The translations under genes were made by a program, and so were the position numbers. DNA of 64,000 nucleotides from Microbispora bryophytorum (GTDB taxonomy: Bacteria; Actinomycetota; Actinomycetes; Streptosporangiales; Streptosporangiaceae). The notes below the pieces were generated by a model that was not told where the DNA came from, did no database searches, and saw nothing but the letters and a program-made list of their open reading frames with translations. Shown piece by piece: positions 4,720 to 19,079 of this stretch (position 1 is the first letter of the stretch; the number at the start of each line of letters is the position of its first letter). Location: positions 1 through 64,000 of the forward strand of contig NZ_VIRL01000014.1 of assembly GCF_006874465.1 (NCBI RefSeq), in the 5' to 3' direction.

Positions 4720-4879
4720 CGAGCGGCGTCGCGGACACGGCCCGGCCGCGTGATCGTCGCCGTAGCAGTGATCGGGGCGGCCTCGACACCGACGGTGCGG
4801 CATGACCTGACGCTTGGCGTTGGCTGAAGTTTCGAGTCCCACATCGAGCCATACAAGCGACGTGTTAGGCGATGATTCC

Positions 4880-5344
4880 ATGAAAATCCACCGCATCAGA
4901 AAAACAATGCACAGCGTGGGGATCTCCACCATCCGGTATGGACTGGTGATCAACCTTCTGGAGATCGGGCGAATAAAATTCGAAGACTACGAGGTGGAGA
5001 ACATTCGCCCCCTGGTGACCTCAAGCCCCCCGCTCGCGTGGCTTATCGCCAGGCTGGGGGAGAAGAACGTCGCCAGACTGCTCGGCGTCACTGAAATCGT
5101 GCTGGGCTCGCTGATCGGCGCGAAACCGATTGCGCCGAGAGCGTCGGCCCTCGGCAGCCTCGCCGCCGTCGGCATGTTCGCCACCACCCTCAGCTTCCTG
5201 GCCACGACGCCCGAGGCGTGGCAAGAGACACGCGGGGAGCCGAAGCTGTCGCTCGCGGGGCAGTTCCTGGTGAAGGACGTCGTGCTTCTCGGAGCCTCCC
5301 TGCTGACGGCGGCGGACGCCCTGCACGCCGCCGAGCGCCGGTAG
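4880..5344 (+). CDS. RclC/YkgB-like inner-membrane protein (DUF417)
   Basis: The protein has 154 residues and four likely membrane helices. Its layout matches E. coli RclC: RYGLVINLLEIGRIKFEDYEVE, then IRPLVTSSPP, LLGVTEIVLGSLIG, TLSFLATTPEAW and FLVKDVVLLGAS. It is shorter than E. coli RclC because the loop after the second segment is reduced. RclC belongs to the reactive-chlorine resistance system, where its exact role is not known. Here a tetR gene follows by 43 bases and an RclA-like reductase lies convergently beyond it. ATG 4880 is preferred because homology starts there; the Shine-Dalgarno signal is weak. Confidence 0.8.
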   Translation: MKIHRIRKTMHSVGISTIRYGLVINLLEIGRIKFEDYEVENIRPLVTSSPPLAWLIARLGEKNVARLLGVTEIVLGSLIGAKPIAPRASALGSLAAVGMFATTLSFLATTPEAWQETRGEPKLSLAGQFLVKDVVLLGASLLTAADALHAAERR

Positions 5345-5387
5345 CGGCCGGCCCGGTTCCGATTCCCGCAGGTATAAATTTGACATT

Positions 5388-6041
5388 ATGCCTGGTCGAG
5401 GATCGGGAAAAGATCCTCCGCGACGTACCGCGCGCGGCGCGGCCACTCGCGAACGCATCATCGCGACCACTGCGGACCTGATGCACAGGCAAGGGGTCAC
5501 GGCGACAACCCTCGATCAGGTGGTGGACACCTGCGGCGTCAGCAAATCACAGCTGTATCACTACTTTCCCGACAAAGAGGCGCTGGTCGCCGAAGTGATC
5601 GCGACGCAGGCGAACCGCGTGCTCTCCGCTCAGAAGGAGCTGCTTGAGCAGCTGCACACGATGCAGGAGCTCGACAAGTGGCGTGACGCGCTGGTCTCAG
5701 GCCTGAGCGAGCGCGGCTACCGATGTCCGATCGGCTCACTGGCCAACGAGCTCGCCGGCCGCTGCGATACCGCTCGCCGTACGCTGGCGGGCGCCTTCGG
5801 CACGTGGACAGGCGACATGGCGAGCACATTCGCCCGCCTCCAGGACAGCGGTGAACTGAGCTCCGAGGTCGCCGCGGAGGACCTCGCCCTGGAGGTGGTC
5901 GCGGCGCTGCAGGGCGGATATCTGCTCGCGGAGACCATGCAGGACGAACAGCCCTTCGTGCTCGCCCTCGACATGGCGCTGGGCTGGGTCAAGGCTCACG
6001 CGAGGGCGGATCACCAGAAACGACCGGATCGTCCGGGTTGA
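5388..6041 (+). CDS. TetR/AcrR-family transcriptional regulator
   Basis: The protein has 217 residues. The N-terminal helix-turn-helix is clear (RERIIATTADLMHRQG, then TTLDQVVDTCGVSKSQLYHYF, about residues 20-63), followed by an alpha-helical ligand-binding domain ending ALQGGYLLAETMQDEQPFVLALDMALGW. Position between the rclC-like and rclA-like genes suggests it controls them, replacing the AraC-type RclR that does this in E. coli (inference). An AT-rich stretch just before the start is a plausible promoter. The protein resembles the TetR at 16522-17151 in the recognition helix and C-terminus. Confidence 0.88.
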   Translation: MPGRGSGKDPPRRTARGAATRERIIATTADLMHRQGVTATTLDQVVDTCGVSKSQLYHYFPDKEALVAEVIATQANRVLSAQKELLEQLHTMQELDKWRDALVSGLSERGYRCPIGSLANELAGRCDTARRTLAGAFGTWTGDMASTFARLQDSGELSSEVAAEDLALEVVAALQGGYLLAETMQDEQPFVLALDMALGWVKAHARADHQKRPDRPG

Positions 6042-12716: not shown

Positions 12717-13589
12717 TCACCGGGACACACCCTGCGCCGTTGACTCGGCACCGTGCAGGTACTCGTCGAGGCGGCCACGGACGTGGTTCCGGGCGCGTGC
12801 CAAGGCGGCCGTCGCCGAGAGCTCGTCGAGTCCGAGTGCCTGCGCCGAGTCGGCAAGCGCGTAGCCCTGTAGATCGACGAGCGCGAGAAGCTCACCGAAC
12901 GGCTCGGGTAGTTCGCCGAGCGCCTTGTCGAGCAGGTCGTATACCTCTTCGGTCTCGTCGGCTTCCTCCGGGCCGAGGATCTCTGCGCTGCCGGGCCACT
13001 GGTTCGGGCTGCCGGCCCACCCGTCGATCCTGTCCTCGCCCGGGTAGAGATCCGGGTAGAAGAGCTCGGGCTCATCGGCATCGCTGTTGAGGTCGTCGAG
13101 TGAGTCCGCTCGGGCTCGCGCGGCCGCGTCGACCTCGACGGCGGGCGTAGAGCGGCCGTCCAGCCGCACTTGGGCATCGCTGAGTGCGTGCATGATTTTG
13201 GTCAGCTCGGCGATCCCTCGCGGGCGGGAATCTCTGCGTTGCAGCGCAAGGCCCACTTCCAGGGATCGCTGGGCGAGGTCCTCGGCGTTCGCGGGGTCAA
13301 GCAGTTCGGCACGCGCGAGGAGAGCGCTTCGCAAGGCCCCGGCGTCCGTCGCCGGAGACTCTTCCGCCACCGGCATCGCGTCGTCGGCCAGATCGTTCTG
13401 GACGCCGCCGGGACCAGAGCGCCGTCGAAGGAGCTCGCGGGTCGTGGCGATCTGTGAGACGTACGACGCGCAGTCCGGGCAGTCAGCCAGATGGGCGGTC
13501 AACGAACTCTGAAGGTGTTCGGGTGCCAGTCCGAGATCGCCGCCGAATCGCACCACGTCGGAACATCTGCCATCAGTCATTGAGGTCAC
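12717..13589 (-). CDS. Anti-sigma (zf-HC2) domain fused to a degenerate ECF sigma-like protein
   Basis: The protein has 290 residues. Near the N-terminus is a zinc-finger anti-sigma motif H-x3-C-x2-C (HLADCPDCASYVSQI, about 33-47). Residues about 85-140 look like a worn sigma region 2 (LLDPANAEDLAQRSLEVGLAL, then IAELTKIMHALSDAQ). Residues about 218-285 are a clear sigma region 4 (ALGELPEPFGELLALVDLQG, then ALADSAQALGL and a helix of the recognition type). An acidic linker lies between. An anti-sigma domain in front of sigma-like domains in one chain is unusual and suggests a self-inhibited or redox-gated regulator. The palindrome at 13667-13682 lies 78 bases upstream of its ATG. It may alternatively be only an anti-sigma or HTH protein. 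Confidence 0.7.
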   Translation of the reverse strand: MTSMTDGRCSDVVRFGGDLGLAPEHLQSSLTAHLADCPDCASYVSQIATTRELLRRRSGPGGVQNDLADDAMPVAEESPATDAGALRSALLARAELLDPANAEDLAQRSLEVGLALQRRDSRPRGIAELTKIMHALSDAQVRLDGRSTPAVEVDAAARARADSLDDLNSDADEPELFYPDLYPGEDRIDGWAGSPNQWPGSAEILGPEEADETEEVYDLLDKALGELPEPFGELLALVDLQGYALADSAQALGLDELSATAALARARNHVRGRLDEYLHGAESTAQGVSR

Positions 13590-13666: not shown

Positions 13667-13682
13667 TGGTCTATATAGTCCA
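13667..13682. promoter_or_regulatory. Palindromic operator 1 (TGGTCTATATAGTCCA)
   Basis: A 16-base near-palindrome with one mismatch, in the 337-base gap between the divergent anti-sigma/sigma fusion and the sulfite-oxidase-like gene. It shares the form TGGAC-N6-GTCCA with three other sites in this window, so it is probably bound by the same TetR-type repressor. Confidence 0.65.
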
Positions 13683-13823
13683 AGTTACATAATCTAACAC
13701 GCTCACGGCGGCCCTCTCTCGTGGCTGATCGGGGCGAGAGACTGCGGCTGCGGTCACTACCGACGCCCCGGGAGCGGGTGCGCGCGACGGGCCGCGTGCG
13801 CTTTGACACCGGTTGCAGCGGAA

Positions 13824-13855
13824 CCTTAAGTTGGACGAAAGGGTCCACTTAAGGA
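13824..13855. promoter_or_regulatory. Palindromic operator 2 inside an extended inverted repeat
   Basis: The core TGGACGAAAGGGTCCA lies at 13832-13847. The flanks extend the symmetry: CCTTAAG on the left (plus one extra T) and CTTAAGG on the right. It is 80 bases upstream of the sulfite-oxidase-like start. It could be an operator or an RNA hairpin in the leader; the shared core favours an operator. Confidence 0.65.
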
Positions 13856-13926
13856 CGGCTTCCGCCATCGACCCGACCGTGAGACGCCCACCACTAGAGA
13901 CCGTTGGGTCTGGAAGAGAGCACAGG

Positions 13927-14523
13927 GTGACAATCTCGCGTGGCTTCTTCGGCCATCACGACCCGCGCGCCGCCGATCTGCCGCCCGGCCAGCATCTGAC
14001 GCACGGATTCCCCGTGCTGACGGCTGGGCCGACGCAGCTGATCTCGACGGAGAAGTGGAACTTCACGATCACGCCGGAGAGCGGCGAGCCGAGGCGGTGG
14101 AGTTGGGACGAGATGATGGCCCTGCCCGCTGAGGAGATCACCGTCGACATCCACTGCGTGACCCGGTGGACGAAACTCGGGACCCGTTGGCGGGGCGTCG
14201 CGCTCGACACCTTCTTCGAGGACATCGAGACCTCCTACGAATACGCGATGGTGCGTTCGTACGGGGGCTACACCACGAACCTCCCCTTGGAGGACCTGCT
14301 CGGGGGCAAGGCCTGGATCGCGTACGAGTACGAAGGAGAGCCGCTTCACATCGAGCACGGTGGACCGGCCAGGCTACTGGTGCCGCATCTCTACTTCTGG
14401 AAGTCCGCGAAGTGGGTGAACGGCATCACGATGCAGCGCTTCGACGAGCCGGGCTTCTGGGAAGGCTTCGGCTATCACAACTACGGCGACCCGTGGCGCG
14501 AGGAGCGGCACGCCGGTGACTGA
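13927..14523 (+). CDS. Molybdopterin-dependent sulfite-oxidase-like oxidoreductase
   Basis: The protein has 198 residues and contains the Mo-pterin fold only. GTG 13927 has a GGAAGAGAG site. The molybdenum-ligating cysteine is in VDIHCVTRWT; other family features are WRGVALDTFFE, YGGYTTNLPLEDLL and PARLLVPHLYFWKSAKWV. It lacks heme and dimerisation domains, like YedY/MsrP-type catalytic subunits, and has no evident Tat signal, so it is probably cytoplasmic. It overlaps the next gene, a flavin reductase, by eight bases, so the two are likely electron-transfer partners. The substrate is unknown; sulfite or oxidised methionine are candidates. Palindrome 2 upstream probably controls the operon. 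Confidence 0.87.
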   Translation: MTISRGFFGHHDPRAADLPPGQHLTHGFPVLTAGPTQLISTEKWNFTITPESGEPRRWSWDEMMALPAEEITVDIHCVTRWTKLGTRWRGVALDTFFEDIETSYEYAMVRSYGGYTTNLPLEDLLGGKAWIAYEYEGEPLHIEHGGPARLLVPHLYFWKSAKWVNGITMQRFDEPGFWEGFGYHNYGDPWREERHAGD

Positions 14524-15337
14524 CACGAACACGACCGACGGCCCTGCTGGGAGCTCCGTAGAAGCCACTCCGCCGGCAGGGAATCACTGGCGCAGGGCAA
14601 CGCTCATCGGTGTGCGCTCGCAGTCCTGGCATTCCCGGACGCTTGCACTACACGTCCCCGGCTGGACCGGACATCTGCCCGGTCAGCACGTAGACATACG
14701 TCTCACCGCCCCGGACGGCTACTCGGCCCAGCGGAGCTACTCGTTGGCCGAGCCCGCCACGCCCGACCGCGTCGCGGTCACCGTCGACCTCCTGCCCCAC
14801 GGCGAGGTCTCGCCGTACCTGGCGGAGATCATGGAGATCGGTGACGAGCTCGACGTGCGCGGGCCCATCGGTGGATGGTTCGTCTGGGAGCCGGGGGACC
14901 CGTCCATCGGGGACGGCCCGGTGCTGCTGATCGCCGGTGGATCAGGGGTGGTGCCGCTGGTCACCATGCTGCGAGCCCGGAAGCGGGCGGGGGACTCGAC
15001 GCCGACGATGCTCGTGTATTCGCTTCGCGGCCCTCGCGACCTCATGTACGGGCCCGAGCTGGAAGAGATGTCGGCCGATCCGTCCACGCCGGGGTCCGCC
15101 GACGTGCGCCTCGTCTACACGCGCAAGGTCCCCGACGGGCATCCCCGTCCCGCCTCACACCTCGCGGCCGAGGACATCCAGCCTCCGTCCGCGTGGCCGG
15201 AGCCGTTGGCGGCCCGGGTCTACGTGTGCGGCCCCTCTGGCTTCGTCGACCACGCCACAGGCCTGCTCCGCAGGGTGGGATACCCCGACGATCGCATACG
15301 CACGGAACGATTCGGACCGACAGGAGTTGAACGATGA
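14516..15337 (+). CDS. FAD-binding oxidoreductase (ferredoxin-NADP reductase family)
   Basis: The protein has 273 residues. The FAD domain carries RSYSLAEP (about 73-80) and the NAD(P) domain GGSGVVPLVTMLRARKR and YVCGPSGFVDHA. There is no 2Fe-2S domain. It should take electrons from NAD(P)H and pass them to the sulfite-oxidase-like subunit encoded just upstream. GTG 14516 overlaps the upstream stop codon region, and the downstream gene starts in its stop codon (ATGA at 15334-15337), so the three genes form a tightly coupled operon. Confidence 0.87.
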   Translation: MTDTNTTDGPAGSSVEATPPAGNHWRRATLIGVRSQSWHSRTLALHVPGWTGHLPGQHVDIRLTAPDGYSAQRSYSLAEPATPDRVAVTVDLLPHGEVSPYLAEIMEIGDELDVRGPIGGWFVWEPGDPSIGDGPVLLIAGGSGVVPLVTMLRARKRAGDSTPTMLVYSLRGPRDLMYGPELEEMSADPSTPGSADVRLVYTRKVPDGHPRPASHLAAEDIQPPSAWPEPLAARVYVCGPSGFVDHATGLLRRVGYPDDRIRTERFGPTGVER

Positions 15338-15654
15338 CCTCGGATTTCCCGACCCCGGCCGCGCCCGACGGCGGCGCGGAGTCCGCCGCGGTCTTGGACG
15401 GCAACGCCGCTGCCGGCGAGTTCTCCGGGATCCTCGCAAGTGACCCGACCGACGTCAGTGTCCGCTGCGGCAGCTGCGGCGTCGCGCAGGCATTCGGACA
15501 GCTGCAGGCCTATATGGGCGGGCCGGGAACCGTGCTGCGCTGTCGCGAGTGTGCGGCGATGGTCGCCCGAGTGGCCCGGACGCCTCGGGGGACGTGGCTC
15601 GACATCTCCGGCTCCAGCTCGTGGTTGTTCTCACCCACTCCGGGTCTCGCCTGA
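15334..15654 (+). CDS. DUF6510-type small zinc-ribbon protein
   Basis: The protein has 106 residues. Two cysteine pairs, VRCGSCGVAQ (CGSC) and LRCRECAAMV (CREC), about 25 residues apart, form a likely zinc ribbon. The N-terminal 20 residues are low in complexity. The gene overlaps the flavin-reductase gene by four bases. The same trio (Mo-oxidoreductase, FAD reductase, DUF6510) is a recurrent arrangement in actinomycetes, so a role in assembly or electron transfer of that system is plausible, but no function is known. Confidence 0.72.
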   Translation: MTSDFPTPAAPDGGAESAAVLDGNAAAGEFSGILASDPTDVSVRCGSCGVAQAFGQLQAYMGGPGTVLRCRECAAMVARVARTPRGTWLDISGSSSWLFSPTPGLA

Positions 15655-15696
15655 CCGCGACCGCCCAGGCCAACGGATCGATGAGGGGAAACGGAA

Positions 15697-16002
15697 ATGA
15701 AGGCAGTGGTCGGGGAGACGGTCGTGGCCGAGGCCGCGAACGATACGGTGGTCAGGATAGAGGGGAATGTCTACTTCCCTCCGGACTCAGTCGTGGCCGG
15801 CGCACTCCGCGACAGCCCAACGCCCTACACCTGTCCCTGGAAGGGGAAGGCGCAGTATCACGACGTCCTGGCCGGCGAGACGGTGCTCAGGGACGGGGCG
15901 TGGTCCTACCCGCGCATCAAGGAGTCGGCGGCGGCCCGTGTAGGACGCGACTTCAGTGGCTATGTCGCTTTCGATGGGCGCCAGGTGCAGATCGAGACCT
16001 GA
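15697..16002 (+). CDS. DUF427 family protein
   Basis: The protein has 101 residues. ATG 15697 follows GAGGGGAAACGGAA. The family pattern is plain: VRIEGNVYFPPDSV, then TPYTCPWKGKAQYHDV, AWSYPRIKESA and a C-terminal GYVAFDGRQVQIE. The CPWKG segment is the most conserved part of this small beta-rich family, whose biochemical role is unknown. It follows the DUF6510 gene by 42 bases and may be in the same transcript. Confidence 0.85.
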   Translation: MKAVVGETVVAEAANDTVVRIEGNVYFPPDSVVAGALRDSPTPYTCPWKGKAQYHDVLAGETVLRDGAWSYPRIKESAAARVGRDFSGYVAFDGRQVQIET

Positions 16003-16049
16003 CCGATCACGGACCCACCGACTGTGGACGAACGAGGCGAGAAGAGAGC

Positions 16050-16400
16050 ATGACGCGATCACCGGCCGCCGTCGAGGTGCGCAAGGATGAGACCACCCGC
16101 CTTTACGAGGCACTGATCGATGGCCAGGTCGTCGGCAGTCTGGCTTACGAGACGACCGGCGGACGGATCTCCCTCACGCACTCCTACGTGGACCACGACC
16201 ACCGGCATCGAGGCGTCGCTTCGGCACTGGCGCGCTACGCGCTTGAAGATCTGAGCCGGAGTCAGAGCAAGGCGGGGGTCTACTGCGGGTTCGTTGCCGA
16301 CTACGTCGAAGACCACCCCGAGTGGAAGGACGTCGTCGACATCAACCGCTCGGCCTTCATCGCCACGCGCACCGCGCGAGACACGAACAGCGGGCGGTGA
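16050..16400 (+). CDS. GNAT-like small N-acetyltransferase (YidJ/YjdJ type)
   Basis: The protein has 116 residues. ATG 16050 follows GAAGAGAG. It shows the short acetyl-CoA-binding motif HRHRGVASALARYALEDL preceded by the strand ISLTHSYVDHDH, and a C-terminal stretch with HPEWKDVV typical of this compact subfamily. Its substrate is unknown. It lies 47 bases after the DUF427 gene and may be the last gene of that transcription unit. Confidence 0.82.
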   Translation: MTRSPAAVEVRKDETTRLYEALIDGQVVGSLAYETTGGRISLTHSYVDHDHRHRGVASALARYALEDLSRSQSKAGVYCGFVADYVEDHPEWKDVVDINRSAFIATRTARDTNSGR

Positions 16401-16521
16401 CGCGATGGACGATCCGCAGGTCACCCGTCGAGCCTGAGCCCTTCGTCACTCGACTCTGATCCGTCTCTCATGGCTGTCGCAGCGACTTCGGCTCGCATCC
16501 CGGGACCGTTCGGCGATGAGC

Positions 16522-17151
16522 TCAACGTTCGGACAGGCTCTCGATGTGCGCAAGTGCCATGTCGATCGCTGTCGCCATCGGGGTGACATCGTGCGCGGTC
16601 TGGGCCAGCATGTACCCGCCCTGGAGGGCGGCCATGAGCCCGGTCGCGAGCTGGTCTGCCGACGCCTCGGGCGGCAGCGCACCACTGTCTTGAAGCCGTC
16701 GCAACACGCCTGCCAGGAGTCCCTGCCATTCGGTGAACAGCCGGGACAGGGCTTGGCGGGCGAGAGCGTCATGATCGGATACCTCGGAGGCCAGCGAGCC
16801 GAGCGCGCAGCCGTAGGCGCCATGCCGAAGGGCATTGCTCTGGACCAACGTGTCCCGCCAGCGTCGCAGGCCCCGGATCGTCGAGACATGGCCGAGGGCG
16901 TCGCGCTCGCGCTCGATGACGCGTTCTCCCACGTTGTCGATGACGGCCCGCACGAGCGCGTCCTTGCCGTCGAAGTGGTGGTACAGCTGCGACTTGCTCA
17001 CGCCGCTCGCCGCCAGCACGTCATCAAGGGTGGTAGCCCGGACTCCTTTTACGTACATCAGGTCGGTCGCGGCGGCGACGATCCTTGTCCGCGTCTTTGC
17101 ACCGCGCGCCGTCAGGCGTCTGCCATTGTGCGAGTCAGCGGTCGTCATCAC
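16522..17151 (-). CDS. TetR-family regulator, candidate binder of the TGGAC-N6-GTCCA sites
   Basis: The protein has 209 residues. The helix-turn-helix is intact (TRIVAAATDLMYVKG, then TTLDDVLAASGVSKSQLYHHF). The ligand domain ends GLMAALQGGYMLAQTAHDVTPMATAIDMALAHI. Its start codon overlaps the stop codon of the upstream headless tetR-like gene (ATGA), so both are transcribed from the promoter that carries the palindrome at 17669-17684. That gives the usual autoregulated TetR arrangement and makes this the best candidate repressor for all four palindromes (inference). Confidence 0.85.
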   Translation of the reverse strand: MMTTADSHNGRRLTARGAKTRTRIVAAATDLMYVKGVRATTLDDVLAASGVSKSQLYHHFDGKDALVRAVIDNVGERVIERERDALGHVSTIRGLRRWRDTLVQSNALRHGAYGCALGSLASEVSDHDALARQALSRLFTEWQGLLAGVLRRLQDSGALPPEASADQLATGLMAALQGGYMLAQTAHDVTPMATAIDMALAHIESLSER

Positions 17152-17651
17152 GGTTTTATGTTACCGATCAGGCTACTCGTTCCCGTCCTTGCGGGGCTGT
17201 CGTCCTCGGCTGCCGTAAAAGGCGCAAGCGCGAGGTCAAGCGCGGCGTTGAGCGGCCAAGGGTCTTTTGCGATCCGGCTCAGGGTGCTGCCCCCGTGCAG
17301 CGCCGCAAGAATCAGCATCGCAGTCTTCTGGGCGTCGACATCGGCCCTCCGAGTCCGGCCAGAGGAGGAGTCTGTGTCGCCCGTCGTGCCGGACCGCAGC
17401 AACCGGTCCACCGTCTCGGCGATGAGCTCGCGCCACCGATCAAGGAAGTCGGCTCGCTCAGGGACGTCACCTGTATGTCTCAGCGCGAACTCGTACGGCG
17501 ACAGCGGGGTCATGAGCTCCTCGACGACCCGGCGGCGCCAACTGGCCAGCTTCGCCCCGTCGGTGACTCCGGCCAGACATGCGCTCTCGCGGGCCAAGAC
17601 TTCCGCGAAGTGCGTCCTCATCAATCCTCCCGGCCAGTCGACACCACTCAC
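17148..17651 (-). CDS. Headless TetR-like protein (ligand-binding domain only)
   Basis: The protein has 167 residues. Its sequence corresponds to the C-terminal ligand-binding and dimerisation domain of TetR proteins (AMLILAALHGGSTLSRIAKDPWPLNAALDLALAPF parallels the end of the next gene's product), but no helix-turn-helix is encoded upstream. The first codons (MSGVDWPGGLMRTHFAEVLARE) abut the promoter. It overlaps the intact tetR gene by four bases. It may be a truncated duplicate, or it may form heterodimers and modulate the intact repressor. Met at 17621 is an alternative start. Confidence 0.65.
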   Translation of the reverse strand: MSGVDWPGGLMRTHFAEVLARESACLAGVTDGAKLASWRRRVVEELMTPLSPYEFALRHTGDVPERADFLDRWRELIAETVDRLLRSGTTGDTDSSSGRTRRADVDAQKTAMLILAALHGGSTLSRIAKDPWPLNAALDLALAPFTAAEDDSPARTGTSSLIGNIKP

Positions 17652-17668
17652 GCATCCCGCCGCTTTAT

Positions 17669-17684
17669 CGGACTATTTAGTCCA
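17669..17684. promoter_or_regulatory. Palindromic operator 3 (CGGACTATTTAGTCCA)
   Basis: Inverted repeat GGACTA-TT-TAGTCC, 18 bases upstream of the first gene of the two-gene tetR operon. The position suits autorepression. The remaining stretch to 17830 holds no gene. Confidence 0.72.
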
Positions 17685-17830
17685 CTTTATCTCCGGTGTC
17701 GCGATGCTCGAATCCGCAGACAAGGGGGGCGCTGGTCATCGGAAACGCTCGCCGGGGAGTTCTCGGCGTGTGCCGGGGTCAGGGCAGAGTGCGGCCGTCC
17801 CGCGCGAGAACGACCAGGCGCGAACGGGGA

Positions 17831-18418
17831 TCAGCGTTCGACGGGGCCCGGCTCGAGCGCGGAGTTGTCCAAGTCACCCTTCCGCAGCCGAAAGACCTGA
17901 AGACGCAGGTCGTAGTACTTGTCCGTTTCCCCGACCCACTCCATTCCGATGCGGCGGGCGGCGCGGGTGCCGCGCTCGTTCTTGGGCCGTACGACGGCGA
18001 AGACCTCCTCCTCGCCGTTGCTGAAGGCATAGTGGGCCAGGGCATGACCCGCCTCGGCCGCGAATCCCCGCCCCCACGCCCACGGAGCGAGCTGGTAGCC
18101 CAACTCCAGGTCCTCGCCCTCCGGCGGCAGCGGAAGAATCTGACCCGAGCCTGCGACGCGCCCGCTCTCGGTCTCTTCGATCACCCACCGCCCACTCGGG
18201 CGCCCCTCGGATCGCAGAGGTGCGGCGATCCATCCGGTGATCACCGTACGCATCTGGTCGAGGTCGCCGACGTGACCCATCGCCGGGGCCAGCCACCGGG
18301 AGACCTCCGAGCTGCCGTAGATGTCGAGCGCCCCGGCCGCGTCACCGTGATGCCACGGACGCAGCCGCAGCCGCGGCGTGCTGATGGTCGATCCGGCGAT
18401 AGTGACCTCGTGAGCCAA
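17831..18418 (-). CDS. GNAT-family N-acetyltransferase (RimJ/RimL type)
   Basis: The protein has 195 residues. TTG 18418 is chosen because GAGGAG lies eight bases upstream and the frame before it overlaps the palindrome. STPRLRLRPWHHGDAAGALDIY opens the domain, LGYQLAPWAWGRGFAAEAGHALAHYAF is the acetyl-CoA motif A, and VRPKNERGTRAARRIGMEWVG is motif B. Such proteins acetylate protein N-termini or small amines. It is divergent from the DksA-like gene, with the perfect palindrome 18489-18504 between them. Confidence 0.85.
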   Translation of the reverse strand: MAHEVTIAGSTISTPRLRLRPWHHGDAAGALDIYGSSEVSRWLAPAMGHVGDLDQMRTVITGWIAAPLRSEGRPSGRWVIEETESGRVAGSGQILPLPPEGEDLELGYQLAPWAWGRGFAAEAGHALAHYAFSNGEEEVFAVVRPKNERGTRAARRIGMEWVGETDKYYDLRLQVFRLRKGDLDNSALEPGPVER

Positions 18419-18488
18419 CGCTGCTCCTCGATGCGGGGACGGGGCACGCCCGACGGCGCGCTTTGCGGTTGACAACGCTACGCTGTAT

Positions 18489-18504
18489 TGGACTACGTAG
18501 TCCA
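18489..18504. promoter_or_regulatory. Palindromic operator 4 (TGGACTACGTAGTCCA), perfect
   Basis: A perfect 16-base palindrome between the divergent GNAT gene (start 18418) and the DksA-like gene (start 18545). It is the best match to the shared consensus and could control both. Confidence 0.75.
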
Positions 18505-18544: not shown

Positions 18545-18877
18545 ATGGACCCGGCCCACGCGCGTGAGTTGATCGAGAGCGAACGGGAACGCATCAAGGA
18601 GCTTCTCGCGTACTCAGCCGCTGGGCGGGCGGCTGACCTGGAGGCGGCCGCCGATGCGAAGACCTCGCTCTTCGATTCGGCGAACCCGCTCGCCCAAGAG
18701 CTTCTTGACGATGCTGTAGCCGAGCAACTCAGCGCACGGTTGGCCGCACTCGATCGGGCCGTCGAGCGCCTGCGCGCCGGCACCTACGGAGTTTCGCTGC
18801 GCAGCGGTCGGCCGATCCCCGACGAGCGGCTTGAGGCCGACCCCGCGGCGGAGCTTCTCGTTGACGAGGCCGGGTAG
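18545..18877 (+). CDS. DksA/TraR-like protein lacking zinc-finger cysteines
   Basis: The protein has 110 residues. ATG 18545 has an AGGGA site; an in-frame ATG at 18488 lies in the operator and is not used here. An N-terminal coiled coil (ELIESERERIKELLAYSAA, then QLSARLAALDRAVERLRAG) is followed by the DksA/TraR C-terminal motif GTYGVSLRSGRPIPDERLEA. In usual members this segment is GTYGVCxxCGxPIPxERLEA followed by a second CxxC; here all four cysteines are missing (S, S, and none in AELLVDEAG). It could still bind the RNA polymerase secondary channel without zinc, or be a decayed copy. Confidence 0.78.
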   Translation: MDPAHARELIESERERIKELLAYSAAGRAADLEAAADAKTSLFDSANPLAQELLDDAVAEQLSARLAALDRAVERLRAGTYGVSLRSGRPIPDERLEADPAAELLVDEAG

Positions 18878-18907: not shown

Positions 18908-18983
18908 CCTCGTGCGGTGCATTACCCATCAACATCATGCAGTGCGAACCCATCAACCTCGTGCGGTGCGAACCCACCAGCCG
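18908..18983. repeat. 24-bp tandem repeat, two full and two partial copies
   Basis: The unit ACCCATCAACCTCGTGCGGT plus GCGA occurs at 18924-18947 (with four changes) and 18948-18971, with partial copies on both sides. It lies in the gene-free gap 18878-19414. Confidence 0.65.
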
Positions 18984-19004
18984 CTCCCCACGCTGCTCGG
19001 CGCC

Positions 19005-19079
19005 GGGCGCGTGAAAGCCGGGCGCGTGAAAGCCGGGCTCGTGAAAGCCGGGCTAGTAAAAGCAGGGCGCGTCCATGCC
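19005..19079. repeat. 15-bp tandem repeat, five copies
   Basis: The unit GGGCGCGTGAAAGCC repeats five times in register (19005, 19020, 19035, 19050, 19065) with increasing divergence. Fifteen bases keep any reading frame, so a frame would encode (AG[RL]VK)n, but no start, ribosome site or conserved domain supports a gene. The rest of 18878-19414 contains no gene and probably the promoter of the MFS gene. Confidence 0.75.

Follow-up and report, generated by a model that had tools for sequence, protein, structure and literature searches.

A 64,000-nucleotide stretch of the Microbispora bryophytorum genome (contig NZ_VIRL01000014.1, positions 1 to 64,000, hereafter the window) carries four 16-bp palindromes of the form TGGAC-N6-GTCCA, which are very probably docking sites of one repressor. 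Our best explanation, to which we give a probability of roughly two in three, is that they are operators of a single TetR-family repressor encoded among them (16522..17151, minus strand), and that the stress regulon under its control is released by an oxidant or electrophile acting at the repressor's cysteine C115. Computation gave us the sites together with how they are conserved and placed, the gene families behind them and the invariance of the cysteine; this evidence is set out below.

All four palindromes are intergenic relative to called genes and lie at the positions reported in an earlier note on this DNA (starts at 13667, 13832, 17669 and 18489; 1-based coordinates, no strand assigned); scored against TGGAC-N6-GTCCA, two match exactly and two with one mismatch. 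Operator 1 (13667..13682, TGGTCTATATAGTCCA) lies between a zinc-finger/sigma-like gene on the minus strand and a gene for a molybdenum-cofactor oxidoreductase (MoOx; 13927..14523) on the plus strand. Operator 2 (13832..13847, TGGACGAAAGGGTCCA) directly follows the -10-like element of MoOx, and operator 3 (17669..17684, CGGACTATTTAGTCCA) stands in front of the tetRC-tetR operon, in which tetR is preceded by a gene for a TetR-like protein, TetRC. Operator 4 (18489..18504, TGGACTACGTAGTCCA), a perfect 16-bp palindrome, separates a GNAT acetyltransferase gene (minus strand) from a DksA-like gene (plus strand). Operators 1, 3 and 4 have the longer core GGACTAnnTAGTCC in common; the core of operator 2 differs (GAAAGG). 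Operator 2 also lies within a longer inverted repeat, CCTTAAG-T-TGGAC...GTCCA-CTTAAGG (13824-13854), which is broken by one base and of which relatives keep only part.

The earlier note had offered the bare consensus as the marker of the regulon and had named chance frequency across the genome as a refuting outcome; chance frequency is what the scan returned. In the source genome (G000; 7.85 Mb, 137 contigs) TGGAC-N6-GTCCA has 38 exact matches, 26 of which fall within called genes, and the reversed control has 56; the bare pattern is uninformative alone. The longer core, with at most one mismatch allowed, occurs at five places in the 7.85 Mb, namely window positions 13668, 17670 and 18490 and two positions on another contig of the same genome, C52. 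For an independent count we used 30 loci selected by TetR orthology (at least 60% identity) and not by site: the window, L035-L038 and L051-L077 minus the duplicates L053 and L055. Together they span 602,874 bases, 70% coding according to our own gene caller; since that caller overlooks some small genes, 'intergenic' is approximate. These loci hold 71 core sites (26 exact, 45 with one mismatch) spread over 28 of the 30, none within a called gene, whereas seven control palindromes gave 3, 3, 0, 0, 0, 0 and 0 matches in the same sequence. Because the sites were selected by the pattern itself, conservation of the arms within this set is no evidence; a preference for A/T extends past the selection pattern, at positions -5 to -1 and +16 to +20 of the core sites. 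The site table kept 119 sites, identical contexts being counted once, and dropped L053, L055, L130 (duplicate records), L032-L034 and L079.

Sites also follow the repressor across genomes. Among 100 genomes of the window's family, five have an ortholog of at least 60% identity; in these, TGGACTAnnTAGTCCA with at most one mismatch gave 4, 2, 5, 4 and 2 sites, as against 25 altogether in the other 95. Of those 25, five closely precede a more distant TetR (G027, G035 twice, G058 and G064). At least one site was found in 26 of 28 ortholog-bearing genomes (85 matches in total). The regulon is thus wider than the 'local' one of the earlier note, given these genomes and the two further core sites on C52.

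These counts also bear on the simplest alternative, that no common regulator exists, the AT-rich cores being either -10 promoter elements or palindromes that arose by chance in a GC-rich genome. The core TAnnTA does resemble a -10 hexamer, and the bare consensus occurs at chance. Set against this are the 71 core sites versus 0-3 for control palindromes, their absence from called genes, the A/T preference outside the selection pattern and the lack of a -35 box at a fixed distance, and we regard this alternative as scarcely credible; a chance origin of the core motif is rejected by the counts just given and by its rarity in the genome. TTGACA-like hexamers are commoner upstream of sites than in shuffled sequence (30 over 46 start positions versus 13 expected over 40). 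They stand at no fixed distance, so a common -35 box was rejected and an obligatory promoter-operator layout was dropped.

Conservation upstream of MoOx provides evidence for the first two operators. Eight other loci have a MoOx at least 85% identical, and seven of them (L052, L054, L063, L065, L141, L144 and L146) carry a box TGGAC[GT]AAAnnGTCCA at a distance of 54-100 bp ahead of the MoOx start, with the last base altered in L065; because of this conservation operator 2 was accepted. Operator 1 is identical, its odd TGGTC half included, upstream of MoOx in L144, L141, L054 and L146, and has one change in L065 and in L052; it was not found within 423 bp upstream of MoOx in L063 or L075. Reading the sequence ahead of operator 2, we found a promoter-like element, TTGACA-N18-TAAGTT (13803..13832, plus strand), whose last base is the first base of the operator. 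A TTGACA box precedes operator 2 in all eight upstream sequences compared (the window and seven relatives), each of which shows TTGACACC. More distant MoOx loci have variant boxes (L062/L137, L074, L135 and L151) or no good box upstream (L073, L076, L077 and L152).

The proposed reader of the operators combines a TetR_N helix-turn-helix (HTH) domain with a C-terminal dimer domain, TetR_C_13_2 (both Pfam), and contains C115 as its single cysteine. Its AlphaFold model has a mean predicted local distance difference test (pLDDT) score of 89.4 and matches the structures of Caur_2221, NemR and PA2196 among others. A TetR-homology scan of genome contigs yielded 43 loci, with orthologs of at least 60% identity in Microbispora, Planotetraspora, Nonomuraea, Streptosporangium, Kribbella, Actinopolymorpha, Streptomyces, Actinacidiphila, Actinoplanes, Nocardioides, Diaminobutyricibacter, Promicromonospora and a metagenome-assembled genome of Propionibacterium. 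Of the 36 TetR copies of at least 59% identity, 21 have a box matching TGGACTAnnTAGTCCA with at most two mismatches in the 750 bp upstream, compared with 0, 0, 2 and 0 of 36 for four control palindromes; two further copies have a box with three mismatches and three have the outer arms only. From this placement we infer that the TetR of the window binds the operators. The earlier note's proposal of a shared operator and an autoregulated TetR, joining a redox enzyme, GNATs and transcription-modulator-like genes in one regulon, is likewise supported by phylogenetic footprinting.

The association reaches TetRs just 30-42% identical, which have a TGGAC-N6-GTCCA box 33-114 bp upstream (L046, L048, L050, the second TetR of L072, L123, L124, L125 and L126) and in most of which the recognition helix still reads SKSQ or nearly so (Arg in L126, SKGH in L125, GKSQ in L072). 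For TetRs with the Lys replaced (L042, L044, L045, L047 and L049) the best matches carry four mismatches, with boxes such as TGGAGTGTCAACTCCA or TGGAATGTCAATTCCA; these boxes were found by searching with the original pattern, so that a pairing of helix and box is only suggestive, and L121, with SGSQ and TGGACTATTTCGTCCA, is an exception to it. No clear box was seen for L040, L041, L043 and the second TetRs of L061 and L073.

A second TetR in the window, a 47% identical paralog (5388..6041, plus strand), is a possible second reader of TGGACGAnnTCGTCCA-type sites, although only a candidate member of the regulon. It might read operator 2 wholly or in part and leave operators 1, 3 and 4 to the local TetR, so that two repressors would overlap at MoOx, an arrangement compatible with our main proposal that we consider improbable. 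It would fit a same-genus genome (L039) in which a paralog-like TetR is flanked by TGGACGATTTCGTCCA and TGGACGAAATCGTCCA, both of the core type of operator 2, and intergenic TGGACGAnnTCGTCCA-like sites on contigs C126, C68 and C93, one of them beside a TetR remnant that is paralog-like by eye. In relatives, on the other hand, operator 2 co-occurs with operator 1 (or a nearby core site) and the local TetR, and the recognition helices of both TetRs contain SKSQLYH, so their specificity may be the same. The paralog keeps the cysteine, is not preceded by a TGGAC box in the window and directly follows a DUF417 gene (4814-6041 for the pair); DUF417 is presumably the family of E. coli RclC.

The proposed trigger follows from the cysteine. 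The position of C115 is Cys in all 59 aligned TetRs, and 35 of the 36 copies of at least 59% identity have no other cysteine. C115 aligns with Cys106 of E. coli NemR, the bleach and electrophile sensor of nemRA-gloA, and Cys106 is the residue for the reactive chlorine response according to a review (PMC7464077). The other five NemR cysteines are not conserved, including the electrophile pair Cys21/Cys116 (Met32 and Ser125 here), and neither is Lys175, whose position is Gln184 here and Lys in 3 of 59 TetRs. The Cys106-Lys175 switch, as the review presents it, therefore cannot operate unchanged, and for this reason we propose thiol modification of C115 as the trigger. At rest, the TetR would occupy TGGACTAnnTAGTCCA-type boxes, at MoOx directly behind the -10-like element, and repress its own operon, the MoOx/flavin-reductase operon, two GNAT genes, the DksA-like gene and the zinc-finger/sigma-like gene; elsewhere in the genome a pair of phosphoenolpyruvate (PEP)-mutase-like and nitroreductase genes would probably be repressed too. 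An oxidant or electrophile (reactive chlorine, peroxide, quinone or epoxide) would modify C115, its only cysteine, and the modified TetR would let go, allowing the repair and detoxification set to be made. We infer oxidant induction, and any substrate proposed for MoOx below is tentative as well.

The genes behind the sites give this proposal its content. In the window they are the zinc-finger/sigma-like gene, the series MoOx-FNR-DUF6510-DUF427-GNAT, TetRC-TetR, a second GNAT and the DksA-like gene. On C52, one site precedes the PEP-mutase-like gene and the nitroreductase gene, and another lies about 565 bp upstream of the called start of an alpha/beta hydrolase that matches Cif-like epoxide hydrolases best in the PDB. 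We tallied targets for 107 sites; some of these loci were fetched because they bear a site, so that the target counts are biased, whereas the count of 71 versus 0 uses TetR-fetched loci only. Recurrent first or operon genes were TetR or TetRC (20 loci), small GNATs (17), quinone-reductase-like genes (9), AhpD-like CMD genes (9), PEP-mutase-like genes (8), ECF-sigma-like genes (8, Pfam below cut-off), MoOx (7), nitroreductases (6), SDR genes (3), histidine kinases (3), SelR/MsrB (2) and UDG (2). AlkA-like targets at three loci have no Pfam match and were assigned by our own reading, and HhH-GPD (L150) and AhpC-TSA (L126) were each found behind one site, the latter site lying next to a distant paralog in a genome that lacks a close ortholog. 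An expanded natural version of the regulon is present in Actinoplanes sp. TBRC 11911 (L134, 5793-16305), where seven operator sites lie within 10.5 kb near a 78% identical TetR and precede OsmC, Ferritin_2/Nramp, an FAD-oxidase, a quinone reductase-GNAT-UDG series, an FNR-like gene, thioredoxin and a separate TetRC; thioredoxin, OsmC and Ferritin_2 are targets at this locus only. The common thread of the targets is redox repair and detoxification, and several members are not specific to it.

Several observations besides the loss of the NemR lysine weigh against the regulon as we read it, as does the approximate meaning of 'intergenic'. Operator 2 departs from the consensus in its core, and L075, whose MoOx is 86% identical, has neither operator 1 nor operator 2. 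No recognisable box lies within 750 bp upstream of 10 of the 36 TetR copies (L036, L059, L061, L062, L071, L075, L077, L078, L134 and L137), and at the threshold used 2 of the 28 ortholog-bearing genomes lack a site. The reversed control scores in 22 of these 28 genomes, with 50 matches versus 85, and outnumbers the sites in most of the 100 family genomes; depletion of CTAG-like cores in coding DNA may lie behind its high scores. Because the reversed pattern often outscores the motif, the comparison was made instead with TetR-less genomes and control palindromes. The cysteine motif (GC-x7-E-like) runs through the whole TetR subfamily, so C115 may be structural, and GNATs, PEP mutase, SnoaL-like genes and Nramp make up many targets that do not point to oxidants in particular.

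A further alternative keeps the same TetR and operators: the inducer could be a small molecule bound in the TetR pocket, such as an antibiotic-like metabolite or an aromatic compound, with the stress genes serving to cope with it. The frequency of GNATs among the targets and the loss of the NemR lysine would suit such a ligand. The redox-repair targets, namely AhpD-like genes (9 loci), nitroreductases (6), SelR/MsrB (2) and thioredoxin with OsmC (one locus), argue against it, as does the invariance of the only cysteine, and we consider it a tentative second choice, clearly less likely than release through C115.

The regulon resembles known systems, although the earlier note had not recognised it from any. 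Like NemR, its repressor has the TetR fold, a cysteine at the position of the sensor Cys106 and redox-detoxification targets, and a 16-bp palindrome of similar layout, TAGACC-N4-GGTCTA, lies just before nemR in E. coli K-12. We take this palindrome to be the NemR operator. Unlike NemR, the repressor shares 21% identity with it (41 of 192 aligned positions), controls a different and larger target set and is accompanied by an HTH-less partner gene. Bacillus LmrA/YxaF has a C-terminal domain of the same family, TetR_C_13_2, and YxaF (1sgm) is among the sequence and structure matches. The targets and operator layout of LmrA/YxaF probably differ from those of this regulon. The closest solved structure by sequence and fold is Chloroflexus Caur_2221 (3qbm), with 31% identity in the fold alignment. 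Pseudomonas CifR, the epoxide-induced TetR repressor of the cif operon, belongs to the same TetR fold class (6nsm_B), and a Cif-like hydrolase lies near a C52 site, a link that is weak because of the distance of that site from the hydrolase start; unlike our TetR, CifR controls one divergent three-gene operon (PMC8244358). Deletion of the TetR repressor of an oxidative-stress gene cluster in Acidovorax avenae raises oxidative-stress resistance (PMC4204640); that repressor differs in binding the pqiA'-tetR intergenic region. Taken together, the regulon resembles the NemR/CifR type in the way it works, and differs from the NemR switch proper in Lys175 and the electrophile cysteines. Our literature search, to which subscription papers were mostly closed, recognised no paper describing this regulon or operator; when the search was made by sequence, the 25 hits listed of 2,134 were unrelated.

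The partner gene qualifies the 'double tetR operon' of the earlier note, which contains one TetR with a DNA-binding domain and a first gene without TetR_N. TetRC (17148..17621, minus strand) probably starts at 17621, 30 bases inside an open reading frame beginning at 17651, and consists of the TetR helices alpha4-alpha9 only. Its sole Pfam match is TetR_C_13_2 (25.1 bits, cut-off 27); the profile match to the TetR C domain has a probability of 98% at 31% identity, and its model (mean pLDDT 80.5) found TetRs including NemR as best Foldseek matches, none at E < 0.001. TetRC precedes 20 of the 36 TetR copies, three of these partners being partial or broken (L060, L062 and L063) and the neighbour in L147 being excluded as TetR itself; it is missing before the other 16, and in L134 it stands apart from tetR. 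In six comparisons the ratio of non-synonymous to synonymous differences (pN/pS) was 0.26-0.52 for TetRC and 0.19-0.32 for TetR, which points to purifying selection on TetRC. A frameshifted full-length TetR was rejected on these values and on the lack of an HTH remnant upstream in 11 loci. The longest conserved stretch of TetRC, ILAALHGG...ALD near the C terminus, falls within alpha8-alpha9, which usually form the dimer face of TetRs, and the sensor cysteine is absent from TetRC in the alignment. TetRC, an HTH-less paralog that would be co-transcribed with the repressor, might be a built-in anti-repressor: made on release, it would form one-armed heterodimers that keep the regulon open, sharpening or prolonging a stress response that governs a cytosolic, molybdenum-dependent repair reductase. 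We consider this role possible but doubtful; alternatively TetRC could sense a ligand separately, or be a decaying relic, in view of the copies that lack it. If functional, an HTH-less partner would be a mode of TetR control on which our literature search found no relevant paper.

The remaining window genes are described here with their family assignments. MoOx is a 198-aa protein with the Oxidored_molyb fold (Pfam), distantly MsrP- and sulfite-oxidase-like; it scores 38.3 bits against a cut-off of 207 with the NCBIfam MsrP equivalog model, far enough below that methionine sulfoxide as its substrate is a guess. Its gene overlaps that of an FAD/NAD-binding reductase (FNR; 14516..15337, plus strand; Pfam), the likely electron donor of MoOx, and this overlap suggests a reductase acting in the cytosol. 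On the same strand follow genes for a DUF6510 protein with two Cys-x2-Cys pairs (15334..15654), a DUF427 protein (15697..16002) and a small GNAT (Acetyltransf_CG; 16050..16400), which has its own operator in several relatives; all three are Pfam assignments, as is that of the GNAT in front of operator 4 (Acetyltransf_3; 17831..18418, minus strand). The zinc-finger/sigma-like protein (12717..13589, minus strand) was called an anti-sigma/sigma fusion in the earlier note; it has an N-terminal H-x3-C-x2-C motif, no Pfam match and only sigma-region-4-like matches, in its C-terminal part, which stay below cut-offs. Profile hits of the DksA-like protein (18545..18877, plus strand), which has no cysteines, are also below cut-offs, and two short imperfect direct repeats, about 'catcaacctcgtgcggtgcgaac' and 'cgcgtgaaagccggg', lie behind its gene (18915-19065).

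Further sites were seen beside other genes. A PAS-histidine kinase gene (L033, 5517-7141) has a TGGAC-N6-GTCCA site on each side, and histidine-kinase-like genes, grouped by a similarity cluster and not by Pfam, also lie behind sites in L057, L138, L139 and L145. Upstream of an MFS gene, two operator-like sites enclose a run of tcgtgg hexamers (L031, 8106-8160). The last 127 bases of a stretch of C93 (L182, 5484-5964) are the first 127 of C68 (L032, 1-450) in opposite orientation; TGGAC-N6-GTCCA sites occur nearby, as do a histidine kinase and the broken remnant of a paralog-like TetR.

In many soil actinobacteria the regulon is perhaps held down until oxidising or otherwise reactive chemicals strike. 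It would then be a candidate for a TetR stress regulon that works through a thiol, beyond the Gram-negative case of NemR. It also offers a testable regulator, an operator and a likely purpose for genes that recur in actinobacteria, among them the 198-aa molybdenum oxidoreductase with its flavin reductase, DUF6510, DUF427 and the small GNATs.

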